A DNA stretch of 56,274 nt from Firmicutes bacterium HGW-Firmicutes-14 (lineage in GTDB: Bacteria; Bacillota; Thermincolia; Thermincolales; UBA2595). Position 1 is the first letter of the stretch, and every line of letters starts with the position of its first letter. The stretch covers positions 1 through 56,274 of the forward strand of contig PHAB01000021.1 of assembly GCA_002840275.1 (NCBI GenBank), written 5' to 3'. The notes under the pieces were generated by a model, which was not told the DNA's origin, made no database searches, and saw only the letters and a list, made by a program, of their open reading frames with translations. Below are positions 43,994-56,274 of the stretch, piece by piece. A program made the position numbers and the translations under genes.

Positions 43994-45196
43994 CTAACTG
44001 GCGGGCCGTAGATACGTGACCTTGGTTATTTTTATCCCCAGGTCTTTAATTTCTCCATATTTGTATTTTGCAAGGATGTTTTTAGCGCCATGAATATCCC
44101 GGTGTTCAGCATACCCGCAATAGCACCGGAATGTTCTGCCGGAAACTTTTTTCTTCCGGTTACAGACAGGACATGTCTGTGTTGTATATGATTCATCTGT
44201 TTTTATTAAGTCAATACCTGCTGCAGCCAGTTTATAGGTTAGATACCAAAGCAGAATACCAAACGGCCATTGACTTAGTTTTTGGTTTACTTTGCGACTT
44301 CTGTGTTTCTTTTTCGGATTTTTCCTATGGGCTTTAGTGTTGCGCTGGACACCTTCCACATTACCAACTACTGCCTGACCTATCCGGTTGGCTTCAGCCC
44401 ACCTGACAAACCGGCAGCTGGATTTATGAAGTATATCCCGTTGTTGTCTTTCTGTTTTTTGCAGGGTTTTAGCCAGTGCCCGGCGAAGCTTCTTCCAGCG
44501 CCTTGAGCCTTTTTGACACCTGCTTAGTTTTTTCTGGAGTTCAGCATATTTTTTGTTCCGCAGGCGCTTCTGGGAGCGAAGCTTCCTGGAGGTGATGACC
44601 AGTGCCCTGCCATTGTCGGCAATACAGGCTATTCCATGTATTTCACCCATATCAATTGCGGCAATACCCTGATGGTTATTTTCCTTTGGCTGCAGGCCAT
44701 CTTCATAGCTAATAGCCAGCATCAGCTTTCCGTCCCAGATCAGTTCAATTTCTTTGATCTGACCTTTGGGTATGTTAAAAACCCTGACCATGATTGGTGG
44801 TTGTCGTTTTCCATTGATCAGGCACATTTTCAATTCAATTAACCCGTTCGGGTGGACGACAAAGCCGTCTTTTTTCCACCGGGCTGGGTAGTGCTTTTTC
44901 TCTCTGTAGGGGTAACGAATATTTTTAAAGCCTTTTTGTTTAGCCTGCCATGCGTTTGTTCTTGCTTTTATATATCTTTCCTGGACTGACTGGACGCTTT
45001 GGCTGTGGAGGTGATATTTTTTCCGAGTAAGCTGTTGCAGTTCACTTAGGTTGATCCAGCGGCCTGTCTGCCGGTGATGGTTTTTATCGTGCCCCAGGCA
45101 ATTATTCCAAACCTGGGCTGAAACGCGGTTACAGGCAAAAAGTCGTTCCAGGTCTATCTTACTAGTTCGAAAGGTTGTTTTATGGGTTCGAATCAC
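43994..45196 (-). CDS. tnpB: RNA-guided nuclease TnpB (IS605 OrfB type)
   Basis: 400 residues from GTG 45196, seven bases after AAGGAGGTG; the frame is open to 45304 but VIRTHKTTFRTSKIDLERLF is the natural family start. RuvC-like catalytic residues are all visible: D in AAIDMGEIHGIACI, E in VVGNVEGVQ and D in HRDIHGAKNIL. The zinc finger CPVC...CYCG lies between the last two. The N-terminal recognition part and arginine-rich bridge region are complete. It should be an active nuclease guided by the adjacent omega RNA; in such elements it keeps the transposon in place by cutting the empty donor site. Confidence 0.9.
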   Translation of the reverse strand: MIRTHKTTFRTSKIDLERLFACNRVSAQVWNNCLGHDKNHHRQTGRWINLSELQQLTRKKYHLHSQSVQSVQERYIKARTNAWQAKQKGFKNIRYPYREKKHYPARWKKDGFVVHPNGLIELKMCLINGKRQPPIMVRVFNIPKGQIKEIELIWDGKLMLAISYEDGLQPKENNHQGIAAIDMGEIHGIACIADNGRALVITSRKLRSQKRLRNKKYAELQKKLSRCQKGSRRWKKLRRALAKTLQKTERQQRDILHKSSCRFVRWAEANRIGQAVVGNVEGVQRNTKAHRKNPKKKHRSRKVNQKLSQWPFGILLWYLTYKLAAAGIDLIKTDESYTTQTCPVCNRKKKVSGRTFRCYCGYAEHRDIHGAKNILAKYKYGEIKDLGIKITKVTYLRPAS

Positions 45197-45443
45197 TGAT
45201 TTGCACCTCCTTACCTGCTTATTTCTTGATATTTCCATTATATCACATTTAAGGAAGAAAGGGAACGTTTGTTCGGATAGTTTTTTTATTTTTTTGGCAT
45301 TCATCTCCTACCTATGAGGATGGGAGTCTTCTGCTGATGGAGGAGATAAAAATATAAAAGGTATAACAAAATTATACTGTGTTGACAAGTTTCGACAGAA
45401 ATTATCGCTAGTATCTTATAATTAATGTGTTATCTTATCCGAC

Positions 45444-45988: not shown

Positions 45989-48379
45989 ATGAGTTTAAAT
46001 CAAAAAGCCAAGTTAGATATTATTCATGATATTCCATCAGAAGACATACTAAGAGATGATCTTCTTGTTCCTATCTTTTATGAGATGGAAGAATTTGTGG
46101 ATATTCGAGTAACTCACGGAAATACAGAGCTAGGAAAAGATGTTGTGCTAGTATCAAAAGATTCTTTTGGAGATTACGTGTACACTGCTATAATTATTAA
46201 AAACAAAAAAATAACTAATGCAGTTAAGCCAGATAAAAACAGGGAGGCCACATCGGAAATAATAAACCAAATAGTTTTGACTAACAATTCAGGTTATGAT
46301 TGTAAGATTCAACAAAAACATGTTGATTTCAATAAAATAATTGTTATTACTAGTCAAGATGTATCTCATACAGCCATAGCACAAATTAATGATTGCGCTA
46401 AAAAACATGGCAACATAAATATTATCACTAAAGAAGATAAGGACATTGTCGAATTGGTGGACAAGTATCTGCCCTACTACTTTGAAACAACAAACGGAAG
46501 GCTTTCTCACTATTTATACGCATTAAAGAAAAAATGCGAAAAGCTAAATGAATTAGTAAATATTAGTATTTATAAGGGGGATGTTAAAGACTTATTAGAT
46601 GTGTTTGTTGCTCCGAAATTATATAGAGTTGAGGAAACCAATACACCTAAGGGAGTTCAACCAAAACCTATTTTTGGGGTGTTGGACAGAATCATTTTTG
46701 AAAAAAGAAATATTCTTTTAGTTGCCGGACCGGGTGCTGGAAAGTCTACAACCATTCGAGCTCAAGTGCAAAAATTAATTTCAACTAATAGTAGGGGAAA
46801 AGTAATTAATGTCCCTATTATAGTGAAAGCTAAAAATTTTCTAAATTATTTAAGAGAAAACATGACAGGTTCTATTAATAGATTTATTAATGATGAATAC
46901 GGTATTTCAGACTTTAATTTTGAAAGTTATTTGAAAAATACAAATTATAGGGTGTTTTTCTTCATTGATGGGCTTGATGAGATACGATTAATCGAAGACA
47001 GAGAATTAATAAGAAATAAGATTGGCAATTTTGCTAAAGAAAATAGTGAAGTAAAGATAGTACTTGCCTCAAGGGAAATAGACGATTTAGAAATGTTTGA
47101 TACTAAAACATTTAATAGATGGGAGTTACTTCCTTTTGAATATAAGCAAGTTGAGCGTTTTATTAGTAGGTGGTTTTATAATAGGTCAGAAGAAATCCTA
47201 GCTGTTTTGAAAGATCACGAATTGCTAGAAAAGCTACCAAAAACACCATTAGTTTTAACTTTGTTGGCAATACTGTATGATGATGATCGAACAGTTGAAG
47301 TACCTGCTAACTTATCCGAATTGTATCAAATGTTTATAGATTTACTGGTTGGAAGATGGAGTTTAGATAGAAGAGATAATTTCGAAAAGCCCAATATAGT
47401 TGAAGATGTACTTATGGAAATAGCCAAAGTTTTACATGAATCCGACAGAACTTCTTTAAGTCAAGACGAATTAGAGAATTTAATAGTGACATACTCTGAA
47501 AATCTGGATTTTAAATTAAATTATACGGAATTCTTCCGAAATTTAGTAGAGCAAACTAGCCTTCTAATAATTAACGATAAAAAAGAGGTCGAATTTCGGC
47601 ACCTGTCTTTTCAAGAATACTTGGTTGCAAAAAGATACTCTGACGAAGTTGATCCGATAATTTTAGATCAATTAAAAATAAAATTTCTTGATGATTGGTG
47701 GAGTCAAATAGTTTATTTTTACTGTGGAATTAAACATAGAAATGATAAACTGCTTATCGATTTAATCGAGATTACTAAACACACTCCACTAATTCCCAGT
47801 ATTAAATCCATTTGGAATTATGGATACCTAGTCCAAGCATCGTACCTCACTCCTATTAAAATAAGAGAGAATTGTATTGCTCAAGAGTTAGAGATATATT
47901 CAAATAAATCGATAGATTACATTGATGGAGTAGTGGAAAACGTTGAAGTCCCACCAGCATTTGCGGTTTTGTCTTTAGTTCATTTTTTTAAGCTTCATTA
48001 TAGCACAAAGTTTATGATCGATTGCTATAAAAGAATTTTTGAAGAAGCTGAAAAGAATGTAGACGACAATTTTAAAGATAGCCTCAAAATTTTACTTATA
48101 GCAAGTATTTTAGCTCACCTCGGTTATCATGATTATTTACTTAAAATTTATGATTTAATAAAGAAATTTCCGCTATTACTCATAGCCCTAGACTTTGAAA
48201 TTTCTTTGTATACTTCTAGTCATGCCGAAAAAGGTAAAAGTATATCTGAACTAAAAAGAGTCTCTAAAAAAATTAAAAATCATATTATGGTAAACTCCGG
48301 CTTATATAGAAGTTATTTTGAGTTAAAGAAAAAAGCTATTGAGGAAACCGCAATAACAACAGAAAATAACGAGAACTAA
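45989..48379 (+). CDS. NACHT-domain NTPase with nuclease-like N-terminus (bacterial NLR-like defence protein)
   Basis: 796 residues, GGGAGG site. Residues 25-165 resemble a restriction-endonuclease (PD-(D/E)XK/Mrr-like) fold: GNTELGKDVVLVSKDSFGDY then AIIIKNKK, with D51 and K70 in place but isoleucine where Q/E is usual. NACHT follows: Walker A VAGPGAGKSTT (about 245), Walker B RVFFFIDGLDEI (about 325), sensor ASREIDDLEMF, and winged-helix FRHLSFQEYLVAKRY (about 540). The C-terminal 230 residues are helical, without obvious leucine-rich repeats. NACHT proteins of bacteria are STAND-type antiphage sensors that oligomerise and set off an effector. It is AT-rich and sits 91 bp before hsdM. Confidence 0.85.
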   Translation: MSLNQKAKLDIIHDIPSEDILRDDLLVPIFYEMEEFVDIRVTHGNTELGKDVVLVSKDSFGDYVYTAIIIKNKKITNAVKPDKNREATSEIINQIVLTNNSGYDCKIQQKHVDFNKIIVITSQDVSHTAIAQINDCAKKHGNINIITKEDKDIVELVDKYLPYYFETTNGRLSHYLYALKKKCEKLNELVNISIYKGDVKDLLDVFVAPKLYRVEETNTPKGVQPKPIFGVLDRIIFEKRNILLVAGPGAGKSTTIRAQVQKLISTNSRGKVINVPIIVKAKNFLNYLRENMTGSINRFINDEYGISDFNFESYLKNTNYRVFFFIDGLDEIRLIEDRELIRNKIGNFAKENSEVKIVLASREIDDLEMFDTKTFNRWELLPFEYKQVERFISRWFYNRSEEILAVLKDHELLEKLPKTPLVLTLLAILYDDDRTVEVPANLSELYQMFIDLLVGRWSLDRRDNFEKPNIVEDVLMEIAKVLHESDRTSLSQDELENLIVTYSENLDFKLNYTEFFRNLVEQTSLLIINDKKEVEFRHLSFQEYLVAKRYSDEVDPIILDQLKIKFLDDWWSQIVYFYCGIKHRNDKLLIDLIEITKHTPLIPSIKSIWNYGYLVQASYLTPIKIRENCIAQELEIYSNKSIDYIDGVVENVEVPPAFAVLSLVHFFKLHYSTKFMIDCYKRIFEEAEKNVDDNFKDSLKILLIASILAHLGYHDYLLKIYDLIKKFPLLLIALDFEISLYTSSHAEKGKSISELKRVSKKIKNHIMVNSGLYRSYFELKKKAIEETAITTENNEN

Positions 48380-48470: not shown

Positions 48471-49931
48471 ATGGTTACAGGCGACATAAAAAACAAAGTT
48501 GATAACATATGGCTGACGTTTCATTCCGGCGGAATCACCAACCCCTTATCGGTCATTGAACAGATCACATATTTCTTATTCATCAGGGGACTCGACGAAG
48601 TCGAAGAGAAGAGAGAAAATGAAGCCACGGTCCTTGGTATAGAGTTCAAAAGAATATTCCCAGCGGACAAGCAGCATCTCCGGTGGAGCAAGTTCAAAAA
48701 TATGGAAGCCGCCAAGATGTACCAGGTAGTATCAGAAGAGGTATTTCCTTTCATAAAAAACCTCAATGGAAATAAGGATTCGGGTTACGCCAAATATATG
48801 TCTGACGCCATTTTCATCATTCCTACACCACAGCTTTTAGAAAAAGTGGTGACCAGCCTTTCAAACCTTCCGATGGATGACAGGGACACCAAGGGTGACT
48901 TGTATGAATACCTCTTATCAAAGCTGTCTCAGTCCGGCACTAACGGTCAATTCAGAACTCCCCGGCATATTATCAGGATGATTGTTGAACTTATGAAACC
49001 CCGGCCGGATGATATTATTTGCGACCCGGCTGCAGGTACCAGCGGGTTTTTGGTAGTAGCAGGGGAGTATTTAAGAGAAAAACACGAAGACCTGTTTCTG
49101 GATAAGAATTCAAGAAATCATTTCAACAACACCATGTTCTGGGGTTTTGACATGGACCGGACCATGCTGCGTATAGGCGCCATGAATATGATGCTGCATG
49201 GAATCGAAAACCCTAACATTATCTATAAAGATTCCCTTTCCGAATTCAATACTGATACCAACCAATATACATTGGTAATGACCAACCCGCCTTTTAAGGG
49301 TTCATTGGATTATGAATCAGTTTCTTCTGATTTATTGAAATTGACAAAGACCAAAAAGACCGAACTTCTATTCCTCGCCTTATTTTTAAGGATGCTTAAA
49401 GCAGGCGGCCGGTGTGCCTCAATCGTTCCGGATGGGGTATTGTTTGGGAGTTCGAAGGCCCATAAGGAAATAAGGAAGGAAATCATTGAAAACCATAAAC
49501 TTGAAGCTGTCATTTCAATGCCCAGTGGGATTTTCAAGCCATATGCCGGGGTATCTACTGCCATCATAATTTTCACCAAGACCGGGGCCGGCGGGACCGA
49601 TAAGGTCTGGTTTTATGATATGAAGGCGGACGGGTATTCATTGGATGATAAGAGGAGCCCGGTTGACGCAAATGATATTCCTGATATTGTGGCCAGGTAT
49701 AACAATCTGGTTGGGGAAGAGGGCAGGCAGCGGACGGAACAGTCATTTTTTGTGCCCAAGGAAGATATAGTGAGCAATGATTATGATTTGTCGGTGAATA
49801 AGTATAAGGAAGTTGAATATCAGGAAGTTGAGTATGCGGAGCCGGGGGAGATATTGAAGGGGATTAGGGAATTGGAAGAAGAGATAATTGAAGGGGTCAC
49901 TGAATTACAGAAGTGTATACAGGTGAAATAA
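48471..49931 (+). CDS. hsdM: Type I restriction-modification methyltransferase subunit HsdM
   Basis: 486 residues, AAAGGAG site. N-terminal helical HsdM domain (NKVDNIWLTFHSGGITNPLS), then a SAM-dependent adenine methyltransferase core: motif I CDPAAGTSGFLV and motif IV VMTNPPFKGSLD (N6-adenine type NPPF). Length is normal. It methylates host sites as part of an M2S1 complex and forms R2M2S1 with HsdR. The hsdS start is two bases after its stop. Confidence 0.93.
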   Translation: MVTGDIKNKVDNIWLTFHSGGITNPLSVIEQITYFLFIRGLDEVEEKRENEATVLGIEFKRIFPADKQHLRWSKFKNMEAAKMYQVVSEEVFPFIKNLNGNKDSGYAKYMSDAIFIIPTPQLLEKVVTSLSNLPMDDRDTKGDLYEYLLSKLSQSGTNGQFRTPRHIIRMIVELMKPRPDDIICDPAAGTSGFLVVAGEYLREKHEDLFLDKNSRNHFNNTMFWGFDMDRTMLRIGAMNMMLHGIENPNIIYKDSLSEFNTDTNQYTLVMTNPPFKGSLDYESVSSDLLKLTKTKKTELLFLALFLRMLKAGGRCASIVPDGVLFGSSKAHKEIRKEIIENHKLEAVISMPSGIFKPYAGVSTAIIIFTKTGAGGTDKVWFYDMKADGYSLDDKRSPVDANDIPDIVARYNNLVGEEGRQRTEQSFFVPKEDIVSNDYDLSVNKYKEVEYQEVEYAEPGEILKGIRELEEEIIEGVTELQKCIQVK

Positions 49932-49932
49932 A

Positions 49933-51144
49933 ATGGTTAAACTTGCTGACTTATTTGAAAAGCCGATAACTGGTGAATGGGGCACTGAAGCAAACAATAA
50001 TGAAGGGTTTAATGTAATAAGAACAACAAATTTTACGAACATTGGGAAACTAGATCTTAAAAAAGGAATTGCAAAAAGAGAGCTAGATTTTGGAGTCGTT
50101 GAACGGAAAAAGCTTAGACCCGGTGATATCATAATTGAAAAATCAGGTGGGAGTGATAATCAATTAGTTGGTAGAGTGGTCTATTTTGACTTAGATGATG
50201 ATATTTATTTGTGTAACAATTTTACGGCCATTTTAAGACCACGTAAGGAATATTTCCCGAAATTTATTCTTTATTACATGCTATATTTATACCATAGGGG
50301 CAAAGTATCAAAGTTTCAAAACAAAACTACTGGCATTATTAATCTTAAACTCAATGATTACTTGGATAAAGTACTAGTTGAAGTACCTAAATTTGAAATT
50401 CAAAGGCGAATAGCTGCGGTTTTAGACAAAGCTCAAGAGTTAATCGATAAAAGAAAACAGCAAATAGAGAAGTTGGATGAGTTTTTGCAAAGTGTGTTTT
50501 TGGATATGTTTGGGGATCCGGTGAAGAATCCGAAGGGGTGGGAGAAGAAGAAATTAGGATACGTCTCACATATTCAAGGTGGGTTGCAAGTCACAACCAA
50601 ACGTGCTGATAATCCAATAGAATTACCTTATTTGCGCGTTGCTAATGTTTACAGGGATTTAATTGATCTTAAAGAAATTAAGACAATAAAAGTAACAGAG
50701 GGAGAAGCAAAAAGGGTTGCCTTAATAAAAGGTGATATCCTTATTGTTGAAGGTCATGGAAATCCAATTGAAATTGGCCGTTCAGCTGTTTGGGAGGGCT
50801 CAATTCAGATTTGTCTGCATCAGAATCATCTTATCAGAGTTAGAGTTGATACTGATTATGCCGTGCCTGTTTTTATAAGCTATTATATTAATTCTGCAGG
50901 TGGAAGACAGCAGATGTTTAAAGCCGGTAAGACCACATCAGGATTAAATACGATTAGCTCAAAAAATGTAAAAGAAACATTGGTTTTGCTTCCCCCTTTA
51001 CCACTCCAAAAACAATTCGGCGCTATCGTCGAAAAAGTCAAATCTCTCAAAGCAAAATATACCGACAGCCTCACCGAAATGGAAAACCTGTTCAACAGTC
51101 TGATGGGACGCGCTTTTTCCGGCAAACTCGTTCCAGCGCGTTGA
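49933..51144 (+). CDS. hsdS: Type I restriction-modification specificity subunit HsdS
   Basis: 403 residues, ATG one base after the hsdM stop. Two target-recognition domains, about 1-150 and 205-365, each followed by a conserved coiled spacer: IQRRIAAVLDKAQELIDKRK and PLQKQFGAIVEKVKSLKAKY. The coil of the first ends LDEFLQSVFLDMFGDPVKNP, where the second begins (KGWEKKKLG). Each domain reads half of a bipartite site. The first domain has no KGWxxxxL lead-in, so it begins a little abruptly. The sequence recognised cannot be predicted by eye. Confidence 0.92.
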   Translation: MVKLADLFEKPITGEWGTEANNNEGFNVIRTTNFTNIGKLDLKKGIAKRELDFGVVERKKLRPGDIIIEKSGGSDNQLVGRVVYFDLDDDIYLCNNFTAILRPRKEYFPKFILYYMLYLYHRGKVSKFQNKTTGIINLKLNDYLDKVLVEVPKFEIQRRIAAVLDKAQELIDKRKQQIEKLDEFLQSVFLDMFGDPVKNPKGWEKKKLGYVSHIQGGLQVTTKRADNPIELPYLRVANVYRDLIDLKEIKTIKVTEGEAKRVALIKGDILIVEGHGNPIEIGRSAVWEGSIQICLHQNHLIRVRVDTDYAVPVFISYYINSAGGRQQMFKAGKTTSGLNTISSKNVKETLVLLPPLPLQKQFGAIVEKVKSLKAKYTDSLTEMENLFNSLMGRAFSGKLVPAR

Positions 51145-51188
51145 AATTCCTCTCCTAGCTGTGTCACTCGATATTTTCAAGGTCCTCG

Positions 51189-51297
51189 ACGTACCATTGT
51201 ACGACTGCGGCCTTAAAAAAATCGGTTTCGTGCTATCCGTGTTTTTACCCGCGAGGGGTAGACCGAATTTCTAAGTGCTGAAGCCCTAAGAAATTCG
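51189..51297. repeat. Two hairpins in the hsdS-hsdR spacer
   Basis: CGTAC-CATT-GTACG is inside a longer imperfect stem (TTTTCAAGG...CCTTAAAA, 51174-51220). Then CGAATTTCT-N16-AGAAATTCG (51264-51297) has perfect 9-bp arms. The 204-bp spacer has no reading frame. It may be a small interspersed repeat or a regulatory leader separating restriction from modification. Confidence 0.45.
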
Positions 51298-51348
51298 CAC
51301 TCAACACTCTGGTTAAGCGGAGTAGTTACCACCATAGGGAGAAATTTT

Positions 51349-54300
51349 ATGGAATCTAATTTTTCCTTTCTGAAGAACAATGAACAATTTAATAATTTTT
51401 CGGAGGCTTGTTTGGAGGCGGAGCAGAGTATTGCTGTGAGTCCGGCTACTACTGCGGTTATTGCGCGGCGGGCTTTGGAGCTGGCGGTCAAGTGGATGTA
51501 TGCCTCTGACAGTGCTTTAACTGTGCCTTACCAGGATAAGCTGTCAAGCCTTGTTCATGACCGGACATTTCAGGATGTACTGGAGCCCAGGCTTTTTCCG
51601 CTTATTAAGTATGTCATTAAACTGGGGAATATTGCAGCCCATAGTAATAATAAGATTACCAGGGAAGAAGCAGTGCTTTCTTTGCATAACCTGCACCAGT
51701 TTGTTTCCTGGATCGACTATTGTTATTCACCGGCATATGCTACCGGTGAGTTTGATGAAAACCTTCTTCCTTACGGAGAGGAAAAGAAGGTTGCCCGGGC
51801 TGAGTTGGAAAAGCTGCAGGATGAGCTGAGTTCTAGGGATAGGAAGTTAAAAGATATTGTTGATGAGAACGAAAAGCTCCGGAAGGAACTCAGTGAGGTC
51901 AGGAAGCAGAAGACCAGGAAACAGGAGTTCAAGGTTGATGAAATAAGTGAATTTGAAACCAGGAAGAAATACATCGATCTGGATTTAAAAGACTCAGGCT
52001 GGATTTTTGGAGAGGACTGCCTTGAAGAATATGAGGTCGCCGGCATGCCCTTTGGCAGCGGCCTGGGATATGTTGACTATGTTTTACTCGGCAACAACGG
52101 CAAACCGTTGGGAGTGGTTGAAGCAAAGAGGACCAGTAAGGATCCCAATGTTGGCCAGCAACAGGCGGTGCTGTATGCTGACTGCCTTGAGAAAGAATTC
52201 GGGCAGAAGCCGGTTATCTTTTATACCAATGGTTTTGAAACATACCTTTGGGATGACAATCTGTATCCGCCCAGGCGTGTTTCCGGGTACTATTCCAAAG
52301 AAGAACTACAGCTGATGGTTGACCGGCGCAGCGGCCGGATTCCACTAAAGAATGCCAGGATAAGCGACACGATTACAAACAGGTATTATCAGACAGAGGC
52401 AATTAAGGCTGTTTGCGAATCCTTTACTGTTGGTGCCAGGAAAGCCCTGCTGGTTATGGCCACAGGCAGCGGGAAAACCAGGGTGGTTATATCATTAGTT
52501 GATGTTTTATCAAGACACAGCTGGGTAAAGAATGCCCTGTTTTTGGCTGACCGGACTGCTTTGGTGAGGCAGGCCAAGAATAATTTTAACAACCTGATGC
52601 CCGACTTATCTTTGTGTAACCTCCTGGACAGCAAAGACAGCCCTGAAAGCAGGATGGTCTTTTCCACTTATCCGACCATGATGAATGCCATAGATGAAAC
52701 AAAATCCGCCGATGGGAAAAAACTGTTTACCATCGGTCACTTTGATTTGATCATTATCGACGAGTCACACCGCAGCATATATAAAAAATACCAGGCCATT
52801 TTTGATTACTTTGATGCCTTGTTGGTCGGCCTAACCGCGACACCGAAAGACGACATCGATAAAAACACATACCATGTCTTTGACCTGGAAAACAATGTCC
52901 CGACATATGCCTATGAATTAGACCAGGCAGTGAAGGACAAGTTTTTAGTACCTTATCATACTGTTGAAACCACCCTAAAGTTTATTCAGGAAGGGATCTA
53001 TTACGACGAACTTACCGAAGAAGAAAAGGAAGAGTATGAAGCACTGTTTGATGATGATATGCCTGACCATATATCCAGTGAGAAAATCAATTCCTGGCTG
53101 TTTAATGATGATACGATAGATAAAGTCATCAATGAACTGATGGAAAAAGGGATTAAGATAGAGGGCGGGGACAAGCTTGGCAAAACCATTATCTTTGCCA
53201 AGAACCATAAACATGCTGAAAAGATAGTTGAACGGTTTGATGTACTTTATCCCAAACACCAGGGGAAATTTACCAGGGTAATTGATAACCACATCAATTA
53301 TGCCCTTGATTTGATAGATAAGTTCTCTGTAAAAGAAAAAATGCCGCAGATTGCGGTATCAGTGGATATGTTAGACACAGGAATAGACATCCCGGAAATT
53401 GTAAACCTGGTTTTCTTTAAGCCTGTAAGGTCTAAAGCAAAGTTCTGGCAGATGATCGGCAGGGGGACAAGACTCTGTGAAGACCTCTTTGGACCAGGGA
53501 TGCATAAACAGAACTTCCGCATATTTGATTATTGCGGTAACTTCGAATTCTTCAGGGTAAACAAAAAAGGGATCGAAGTGAAAAACGTCTCCAGCCTTAC
53601 AGAGAAAATATTTAATGTGAAGGTTGACCTTGTTAAGGAACTCCAGCACTTGGACAGTCAAAGCGAACGGTTAATAGAATACCGGGAAAAGTTAGTCTCA
53701 GAACTAAGCCATGAAGTCAAGTCTTTAAACAGGAAAAGCTTCATAGTCAAACAGCATCTAAAATATGTTGATAAATACAGGTATGAGGAAGCATGGAATA
53801 ACCTTGGTACCATTAACGTGGTAGATATTAAAGAACACCTGGCCCCCATAATTGTTCCCGTAGAAGAGGATGAGCTGGCCAAGAGATTTGACTATTTGAT
53901 GTTTACTATAGAGCTCGCTCATGTACTAGGGAACAATTATGCCAAACCCCGGGAGAAGGTTTTAAGAACTGCAGAATCTCTGGAGGGGCTGGGAACAATA
54001 CCACAGGTTCGGGCCAAGAAAGATATTATCCAGAAAATACGTGAAGAACAGTTTTGGGTCCAAGCTGATATATTTGAGTTTGAAATGGTCCGAGAGGCCC
54101 TGAGGGACTTGATAAAATTTATTGAAAAAGAAAGAAAGTCAATTTTATACACTAACTTCACAGATGAAGTAATAGTAACTAAATATACTGAGGGAATCTA
54201 CAGCTTTAATGAACTCCAGGACTATAGAAAAAAGGTTAACACATATATAAGGGAACACCAGGACCACATCACCATACACAAACTAAAAAACAATAAACAG

Positions 54301-54681
54301 CTGACCAAAAGGGATATCATGGCCCTGGAACAGATATTATGGAAGGAAATTGGAACTAAGATGGATTACGAAAAGGAGTATGGGGATACCCCTGTCTCTA
54401 TCCTGGTCCGCACCATAGTAGGTCTCGACCAGGCTGCAGCCAATGAAGCCTTTTCAGAATTCCTCAATGACCAGAACCTCGACAGCAAACAGATCCGTTT
54501 TGTAAAACACATCGTTGACTGGGTGGTTAAAAACGGTATTATGATTGACAAAAGGGAACTCCAGGAGGAGCCCTTCAAATCAGTGGGAAGTATCACAGAC
54601 CTATTCCCGACAGACAAGGCTCTGAAGATCGTCAGCATAGTTGACAGTATTAATAAGAATGCGACCGAGATATTGGCGTAG
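51349..54681 (+). CDS. hsdR: Type I restriction enzyme subunit HsdR
   Basis: 1110 residues. N-terminal DUF4145-like helical domain (ACLEAEQSIAVSPATTAVIA), coiled coil (155-200), PD-(D/E)XK nuclease with YVDYVLLGNNGKPLGVVEAK, then superfamily 2 motor: Walker A MATGSGKTR (about 370), DEAD-like IIIDESHRS (about 470), motif III LTATP, motif VI QMIGRGTR. The C-terminal part (from 750) is the usual helical assembly domain with the EcoEI-like arrangement. It translocates DNA and cuts unmodified DNA away from the site. It is transcribed after hsdS, probably from the same or a separate promoter in the 204-bp spacer. Confidence 0.93.
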   Translation: MESNFSFLKNNEQFNNFSEACLEAEQSIAVSPATTAVIARRALELAVKWMYASDSALTVPYQDKLSSLVHDRTFQDVLEPRLFPLIKYVIKLGNIAAHSNNKITREEAVLSLHNLHQFVSWIDYCYSPAYATGEFDENLLPYGEEKKVARAELEKLQDELSSRDRKLKDIVDENEKLRKELSEVRKQKTRKQEFKVDEISEFETRKKYIDLDLKDSGWIFGEDCLEEYEVAGMPFGSGLGYVDYVLLGNNGKPLGVVEAKRTSKDPNVGQQQAVLYADCLEKEFGQKPVIFYTNGFETYLWDDNLYPPRRVSGYYSKEELQLMVDRRSGRIPLKNARISDTITNRYYQTEAIKAVCESFTVGARKALLVMATGSGKTRVVISLVDVLSRHSWVKNALFLADRTALVRQAKNNFNNLMPDLSLCNLLDSKDSPESRMVFSTYPTMMNAIDETKSADGKKLFTIGHFDLIIIDESHRSIYKKYQAIFDYFDALLVGLTATPKDDIDKNTYHVFDLENNVPTYAYELDQAVKDKFLVPYHTVETTLKFIQEGIYYDELTEEEKEEYEALFDDDMPDHISSEKINSWLFNDDTIDKVINELMEKGIKIEGGDKLGKTIIFAKNHKHAEKIVERFDVLYPKHQGKFTRVIDNHINYALDLIDKFSVKEKMPQIAVSVDMLDTGIDIPEIVNLVFFKPVRSKAKFWQMIGRGTRLCEDLFGPGMHKQNFRIFDYCGNFEFFRVNKKGIEVKNVSSLTEKIFNVKVDLVKELQHLDSQSERLIEYREKLVSELSHEVKSLNRKSFIVKQHLKYVDKYRYEEAWNNLGTINVVDIKEHLAPIIVPVEEDELAKRFDYLMFTIELAHVLGNNYAKPREKVLRTAESLEGLGTIPQVRAKKDIIQKIREEQFWVQADIFEFEMVREALRDLIKFIEKERKSILYTNFTDEVIVTKYTEGIYSFNELQDYRKKVNTYIREHQDHITIHKLKNNKQLTKRDIMALEQILWKEIGTKMDYEKEYGDTPVSILVRTIVGLDQAAANEAFSEFLNDQNLDSKQIRFVKHIVDWVVKNGIMIDKRELQEEPFKSVGSITDLFPTDKALKIVSIVDSINKNATEILA

Positions 54682-54726: not shown

Positions 54727-55362
54727 ATGCCTAAAAAAACTTTGTTATGGAATGACATATCTGATTTTGCCCGGGGTAAATTTGATGTATGGACAGGAGA
54801 AGGACAGCATGTATGGGCCGAACAAGCTTGGGAAGGCATTATACAGGCTGGGTTGGCAGATTACAAAGATGAAATAGAACGCCATATTGTCTTAATTCGA
54901 CTAATGGCATTAGTAACTATGTATAGGGAATTCTGTGATCTGGTTTGGCAAGAGGCTTTTTATAGAGAAGACATTGTTTCAGATGGTTGAATAGATGATA
55001 ACCAAATTTTTCAATTAATTCGTGTTTGGCAAATTATTGGCCAGGACTTTTATAGATCTGAAAAGATATCTGATTCTAAGGATTCACAGTTAATCGCTGA
55101 AGCACTAAACCAACTTATAGACATACACCGTTATGAGGTTTTTGAGGCAATAAAAAAGAGGTTTGATGATTACTGGGGAATATTTGTTTCAATGCTAGTT
55201 ACTGTTTATAAAGCAGAAAATGGAGAAGAACATGATATAAACAAAGTGACTGATGCGGAATTGAATGAATTTATTCATTATGATGAATTAACTTTCGATG
55301 AAGAACGAGGCTACTATTGGATCAGCATTGGAATGCCGCGTTCTCCTAAAGAAAATGTTTAA
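54727..55362 (+). pseudogene. Gene of unknown function broken by an in-frame TGA
   Basis: The frame opens at ATG 54727 (KKTLLWNDISDFARGKFDVW), meets a TGA at 54988-54990 after IVSDG, and then continues in the same frame for another 123 codons (IDDNQIFQLIRVWQIIGQDF ... ISIGMPRSPKENV) to TAA 55360-55362. Without the stop it would be 211 residues. A TGG-to-TGA change is the simplest explanation. The protein is acidic and helical, rich in W and Y. No family is recognised; position suggests an accessory part of the restriction-modification locus. Confidence 0.6.
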
Positions 55363-55383
55363 AGAATTGGTGGAGGTGAGAAT

Positions 55384-55758: not shown

Positions 55759-55787
55759 TTGACATAGATGGAAAGGAATAGTAACAT
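55759..55787 (+). promoter_or_regulatory. Sigma-A promoter of the metallo-hydrolase gene
   Basis: TTGACA (55759-55764), 17-bp spacer, TAACAT (55782-55787). The CIRCE element begins 12 bp later, at the transcription start region. Confidence 0.7.
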
Positions 55788-55798
55788 ATTTATTAAGG

Positions 55799-55825
55799 TT
55801 AGCACTCGCCGAACGAGAGTGCTAA
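55799..55825 (+). promoter_or_regulatory. CIRCE element (HrcA operator)
   Basis: TTAGCACTC-N9-GAGTGCTAA with perfect 9-bp arms and the standard 9-base spacer is the full CIRCE consensus. HrcA binds it to repress groESL and dnaK operons until heat or protein stress. Here no chaperone gene follows; it controls the hydrolase gene at 55857. Confidence 0.92.
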
Positions 55826-55856
55826 TAAAAATATGTTGAGGTTTGGAGGAGTCCGA

Positions 55857-56258
55857 ATGCATAAAATAACCTTGTTTCCTATTGGAAATGCGGATTGTTG
55901 TAAAGTTGATCTTGCTTCAGGGGAAAAACTGCTTTTTGATTTTGCGCATTATGCTAAATCTGAAGAAGATAGTGATCAGCGCATTGATTTAGCGTCTGCG
56001 ATACGTGAAGACCTTGAAGCAGAAAACAGAACAGATTTTGATGTGGTTGCTTTTACTCATGCTGATGATGACCATATCCATGGTTTCTCTGAGTTCTTTT
56101 ATCTTAATCACGCTGATAAGTACCAGGATGAAAATCGCATTAAAATAAAAGAACTTTGGGTTCCAGCGGCTATGATTGCGTATTCCGGCACATCCGGACG
56201 GCGAATCCGGAGGCATCCGGACAGTAAACCGGAAGTATCCGGACACCTTGTCGGTTGA
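55857..56258 (+). pseudogene. Metallo-beta-lactamase-fold hydrolase, cut off by an insertion sequence
   Basis: ATG 55857 after GGAGGAG; an ATG at 55833 would place the start inside the leader. The N-terminus HKITLFPIGNADCCKVDLAS, GEKLLFDFAHY and VVAFTHADDDHIHGFSEFF shows the MBL fold of the ComEC-like group, with the zinc motif HxDDDH (HADDDH). From about 56181 the sequence changes to repeated CCGGA units and the frame ends after 26 foreign residues. Only the first third of a usual 300-400 residue protein remains in this frame. The gene may resume beyond the insertion, outside the window. Confidence 0.75.
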
Positions 56259-56274
56259 CCTGATTTGCTATTCA
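56181..56274. mobile_element. Terminal region of an insertion sequence (IS21-like repeats)
   Basis: TATTCCGG then ATCCGGAC (56192), ATCCGGAG (56205), ATCCGGAC (56215), ACCGGA (56228) and ATCCGGAC (56237) recur every 10-13 bp. Multiple short terminal repeats of this kind are transposase-binding sites of IS21-type elements. The element interrupts the hydrolase gene and runs off the window. The family is a guess without the transposase. Confidence 0.5.

Follow-up and report, generated by a model that had tools for sequence, protein, structure and literature searches.

A perfect CIRCE operator at a 6A-MBL anti-phage operon: probable HrcA control of an acquired ubiquitin-like system

The stretch of DNA analysed here (the window; 56,274 nucleotides, contig PHAB01000021.1 of Firmicutes bacterium HGW-Firmicutes-14) carries a perfect CIRCE operator, a predicted HrcA site, at the predicted transcription start of a 6A-MBL anti-phage operon, whose first gene encodes a metallo-beta-lactamase (MBL)-fold protein. 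We consider it probable, at about three chances in four, that this acquired operon has been placed under HrcA, being repressed normally and induced by folding stress. The 6A-MBL system and the CIRCE operator were both already known; their combination, observed here twice, was not encountered in the literature searched. Features of the window are listed in Table 1.

Table 1. Predicted regulatory elements, genes and insertion features of the window
Feature	Position	Strand	Remarks
NTPase, weak NACHT match	45989..48379	+	left part of defence island
Type I restriction-modification genes hsdM, hsdS, hsdR	48471..54681	+	
Predicted sigma-A promoter TTGACA-N17-TAACAT	55759..55787	+	10/12 match
CIRCE operator (predicted HrcA site), TTAGCACTC-N9-GAGTGCTAA	55799..55825	+	perfect inverted repeat
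Ribosome-binding site GGAGG	55845..55849	+	7 nt 5' of ATG
MBL-fold protein of 6A-MBL anti-phage operon, N-terminal 107 codons	55857..56177	+	ATG at 55857; NF058524, 129 bits, profile positions 2-104
CTATGATT, target-site duplication, 8 bp	56170..56177	+	second copy at G000:C1:100-107
End of multicopy mobile element with CCGGACA-type repeats; interrupts MBL gene	56178..56274	+	same sequence ends contig C60

The preliminary description of this DNA had claimed a complete HrcA operator after a good promoter. This was borne out by the promoter match (Table 1) and by the full CIRCE sequence, TTAGCACTCGCCGAACGAGAGTGCTAA, which has no mismatches in 18 positions. It is the only site in the window with three or fewer CIRCE mismatches, the expectation in shuffled sequence being 0.01. 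The operator begins 11 nt past the TTGACA-17-TAACAT promoter. Promoter-type matches of this kind, taken singly, are not above chance; the layout, with the operator shortly past the −10 box, is that of the htpG, groES, and hrcA sites of the same genome. The leader RNA is predicted to fold with an energy of −21.4 kcal/mol (z −3.8), the CIRCE repeat forming the stem, as would be expected if the repeat were mainly an RNA hairpin affecting mRNA stability and not an HrcA site. We regard this explanation as highly improbable, since both arms consist of exact HrcA consensus letters separated by a 9-nt spacer, the genome has HrcA and its other exact copies precede HrcA-type targets, and a copy found in Polaromonas (see below) has the same arms with a different spacer.

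CIRCE is usually viewed as an operator of chaperone genes. A scan of the full genome having been proposed in the preliminary description, pattern searches were run over all 67 contigs (3.65 Mb). They revealed exactly four perfect CIRCE cores, located upstream of htpG, groES-groEL, hrcA, and the window MBL gene. The CIRCE-bearing hrcA, with a thermosome-like chaperonin gene next downstream, is the one HrcA gene encoded in the genome. We also collected 75 perfect full-length CIRCE sites from 40 genomes of relatives, and typed their neighbours within 1.5 kb by tblastn. A gene for HrcA, GroES/EL, HtpG, Hsp20, or ClpB was present within this distance at 74 of the 75 sites, in agreement with the earlier statement that CIRCE nearly always accompanies chaperone operons. 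Thus, a perfect CIRCE reliably marks HrcA control in the phylum, and the target of the window CIRCE is exceptional.

Several other features of CIRCE sites were observed. The sole exception among the 75 (L085, G040:C131:3799) has neither a chaperone gene nor hrcA within 1.5 kb, and the nearest sizeable open reading frames lie ca. 300 bp away on either side. The htpG gene was the target at 10 of the 75 sites (L033, L041, L046, L053, L054, L059, L064, L065, L067, and L096), and CIRCE-linked htpG was divergent from clpB once and from hsp20 once. Among viral contigs (L108-L187), perfect CIRCE was present in 104 IMG/VR stretches. In one phage group, it is located 28 nt upstream of a gene resembling that of a small heat-shock protein, while in other phages it is repeated before small unknown open reading frames, with three copies 49 nt apart in L132 and two copies each in L137, L143, L157, L161, and L178.

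The gene downstream of the operator had been described as that of an MBL-fold hydrolase. The MBL fold stands, but the preliminary description had missed that the gene is the first of a ubiquitin-like 6A-MBL operon that continues on contig C1, the order being MBL, E2-E1-JAB fusion, and patatin, followed by trkH and trkA. The E2-E1-JAB protein is a 753-aa Prok-E2_A/ThiF/Prok-JAB fusion with an intact reading frame, and the frame of the patatin gene is likewise open. Residues that 23 homologues have in common, including E2 Cys118, E1 Cys551, and JAB Glu638, His702, His704, and Asp716, are intact in the fusion protein; from family knowledge, we take these to be catalytic. The protein scores 664 bits against NF058523 (6A-MBL_cap2_3; cut-off 320). 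Judged by these matches, the window MBL gene together with the genes of contig C1 is a 6A-MBL operon, a system that the NCBIfam models NF058523 and NF058524 name as anti-phage. It shares with other 6A-MBL systems the order of an MBL gene and an E2-E1-JAB triple-domain gene downstream of it, which the models match (the MBL gene as two fragments; see below), and differs from them in its CIRCE promoter, in having no dedicated regulator seen alongside, and in an MBL gene split by an insertion. The part of Iyer et al. 2006 (PMC1779556) covered here presents the MBL plus E2-E1-JAB operon as type 6a and names Polaromonas naphthalenivorans among the type 6a genomes; a mention of CIRCE or HrcA was not found in that part. 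The MBL-fold proteins Avs1a and LmuA, and those associated with DRT, are distant relatives; however, there are no Avs1, Lamassu, or reverse-transcriptase partners beside the window MBL gene, whose score is far under the Avs1a cut-off. Membership in Lamassu, AVAST type I, or DRT was rejected, as MBL scores were weak only, and E2-E1-JAB and patatin genes follow.

The open reading frame that reaches position 56258 is a fusion, a point overlooked in the preliminary description: MBL coding stops at 56177, and only the first half of the gene lies in the window, interrupted by the mobile element, which extends to the right edge of the window, i.e., to the contig end. The opposite end of the element is found at the start of contig C1, where CTATGATT and the remaining 268 MBL codons (G000:C1:102-905) come after it. 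When the two halves were searched separately against NF058524, each by itself, the interrupted gene scored as two complementary fragments of 129 and 265 bits, the second covering profile positions 107-346 (cut-off 220 bits). Another copy of the element, at the end of contig C60 (L011, G000:C60:8095-8193), adjoins repeats that look like a CRISPR array, and therefore appears to have hit a second defence locus. Because the MBL gene is split, the 6A-MBL system is probably non-functional in the genome as assembled, i.e., inactive or decaying. The operon may now be without regulatory meaning, killed by the mobile element, with CIRCE being merely undecayed DNA. The split at codon 107 and its 8-bp duplication favor this view, while the intact E2-E1-JAB frame, the invariant catalytic residues, and the open patatin frame speak against it. 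We consider it a serious possibility, though with somewhat less than even odds. It concerns the present state of the window copy and not the origin of its CIRCE, and is compatible with HrcA control.

The type I restriction genes and the NACHT-like NTPase located on the left define a defence island, as had been proposed earlier. Beside hsdR, on the side of the CIRCE promoter, a reading frame (54727-55370) appears to be broken by a TGA at ca. 54988 and is likely a decaying gene. A zinc-finger TnpB-like protein of an IS605-type element (43994-45304, minus strand), identified by eye, lies at the left border of the island. MBL or E2-E1-JAB genes of this kind were carried by one of the 398 genomes of the phylum sample, that of the window, and the 6A-MBL operon was probably acquired horizontally and is recent in the phylum. 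Across the eight remaining genomes of the family, trkH is preceded by rplT in four (with a small gene between in one), by a kinase gene in three, and by a different gene in one, and neither CIRCE nor a chaperone gene was found at the trkH locus of these eight. The synteny thus indicates an insertion of the island next to trkH, and that no chaperone operon was parted from its operator there.

These data bear on the possibility that CIRCE is a relic of a chaperone promoter or operon whose genes were removed by the island insertion, and drives the MBL gene by accident. Such an origin would fit both the almost exclusive association of CIRCE elsewhere with chaperone genes and the recent arrival of the 6A-MBL operon in the phylum. 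Yet we find it unlikely, since rplT or a kinase gene precedes trkH in relatives, with CIRCE and chaperone genes absent, the MBL ribosome-binding site and start codon are at a normal distance from CIRCE, and an independent CIRCE occupies the same position in Polaromonas. In addition, the flanks of the window CIRCE show no similarity to the flanks of the three other sites of the genome outside the operator. Both alternatives raised in the preliminary description, a chaperone operon displaced by the insertion and a CIRCE moved by recombination, are therefore not supported, the former being contradicted by the trkH synteny and the latter, as a transfer from another locus of the genome, by the flanks.

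The comparison was extended to the upstream DNA of 41 further 6A-type operons or MBL genes. These loci are from plasmids (of Proteobacteria, Bacteroidota, Deinococcus, Actinomycetota, Nostoc, and Abditibacteriota) and from Bacteroidota-side genomes. No CIRCE was present upstream of 40 of the 41, the best match having at least 5 mismatches, and none was present upstream of 6A-MBL in the Bacteroidota-side samples. The remaining locus, on plasmid pPNAP01 of Polaromonas naphthalenivorans CJ2, has a perfect CIRCE that ends 38 bp upstream of the GTG of the MBL gene and is located 5 nt past a TTGACT-17-TATAGT promoter; it has the arms of the window CIRCE and a different spacer. The chance of such a site within 150 bp is of the order of 1e-9 (by arithmetic with equal base frequencies). 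Thus, the search for the CIRCE-MBL pair in relatives, whose failure had earlier been named as a sign of an accidental link, met with a divided outcome: relatives are without the whole operon and nearly all homologues are without the operator, but an unrelated plasmid has a perfect one. No 6A-MBL relatives were found in viral contigs and phages.

In a tree of E2-E1-JAB proteins, the Polaromonas operon pairs with that of Sphaerotilus, where CIRCE is absent, and the window operon pairs with an Ignavibacteria operon, where CIRCE is absent although HrcA is encoded. A forced clade of both CIRCE carriers was rejected (AU p 7e-175). Since the two CIRCE-bearing operons are not sisters, two separate gains of the arrangement are the simplest reading, and one old gain followed by many losses is less likely. 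In homologous operons, a WYL-domain regulator in divergent orientation, or an XRE and ImmA/IrrE pair, is often present, while neither was seen beside either CIRCE-bearing copy, so HrcA control apparently stands in for a dedicated regulator. HrcA is presumably missing from many of the 41 hosts, e.g., enterobacteria, and the total of 2 CIRCE-bearing operons in 42 therefore understates the rate where CIRCE could work.

In type II CBASS, the conserved C-terminal residue of cGAS is glycine (or alanine), and cGAS is conjugated by Cap2 (E1-E2) and released by Cap3 (JAB) (PMC10097602). The 6A-MBL operon shares with Cap2/Cap3/CapV systems the E1-E2 and JAB functions, a patatin-type effector, which by its sequence would parallel CapV, and the conserved C-terminal glycine of the first protein. 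Among 35 MBL proteins, 23 end in glycine, and in the other 12 the glycine is succeeded by a tail of one to five residues; the glycine most often stands after PRA, and the linker before it is variable. Endings such as PRAG, SHG, EHG, and TQG were observed (L023, L026-L029, L212-L254, and G000:C1:102-905). In contrast to type II CBASS, an MBL-fold protein replaces the CD-NTase, and E2, E1, and JAB are in one polypeptide. Membership in type II CBASS was rejected, as the operon consists of MBL, E2-E1-JAB, and patatin genes only, with no CD-NTase. Because the three-gene operon is without a ubiquitin-like gene, the MBL protein is the likeliest candidate for conjugation by the E2-E1 protein, in the manner of cGAS in type II CBASS. 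Trimming of MBL tails such as VHNVR could be a role of the JAB part.

HrcA stays active only with GroEL, and its activity is lost once GroEL is occupied by unfolded protein. In the proposed mechanism, HrcA would bind CIRCE at the transcription start and keep the 6A-MBL operon off. When the chaperonin is filled by unfolded protein during heat, other proteotoxic stress, or possibly phage infection, HrcA activity would be lost and the operon would be induced along with groES-EL, htpG, and hrcA. The step from phage infection to induction, by way of GroEL load, is more speculative. The broader proposal that HrcA was recruited more than once as a gate of ubiquitin-like operons, with phage GroEL load turning on a defence in which MBL is conjugated via its C-terminal glycine, is tentative and rather doubtful. 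The window operon shares with the HrcA/CIRCE class I heat-shock regulon a perfect operator, its position at the transcription start, and an encoded HrcA; the target, however, is an anti-phage operon and not groE, dnaK/hrcA, htpG, or hsp20. The low frequency of CIRCE at these operons (2/42), the absence of the operon from relatives, and the disrupted MBL gene count against HrcA control, and conservation of the CIRCE-operon pair over time cannot be shown, because no relative carries the operon. Thus, of the original idea of a defence hydrolase under protein-stress control, the first part is strengthened, as the MBL protein belongs to a named anti-phage system, while stress control is a prediction.

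Literature searches revealed no paper joining CIRCE/HrcA with ubiquitin-like systems, and none naming 6A-MBL. If HrcA control is true, two independent cases of an anti-phage conjugation operon under CIRCE would connect proteotoxic stress with the induction of bacterial immunity, and would offer a simple candidate for the trigger of systems in which induction is poorly understood.
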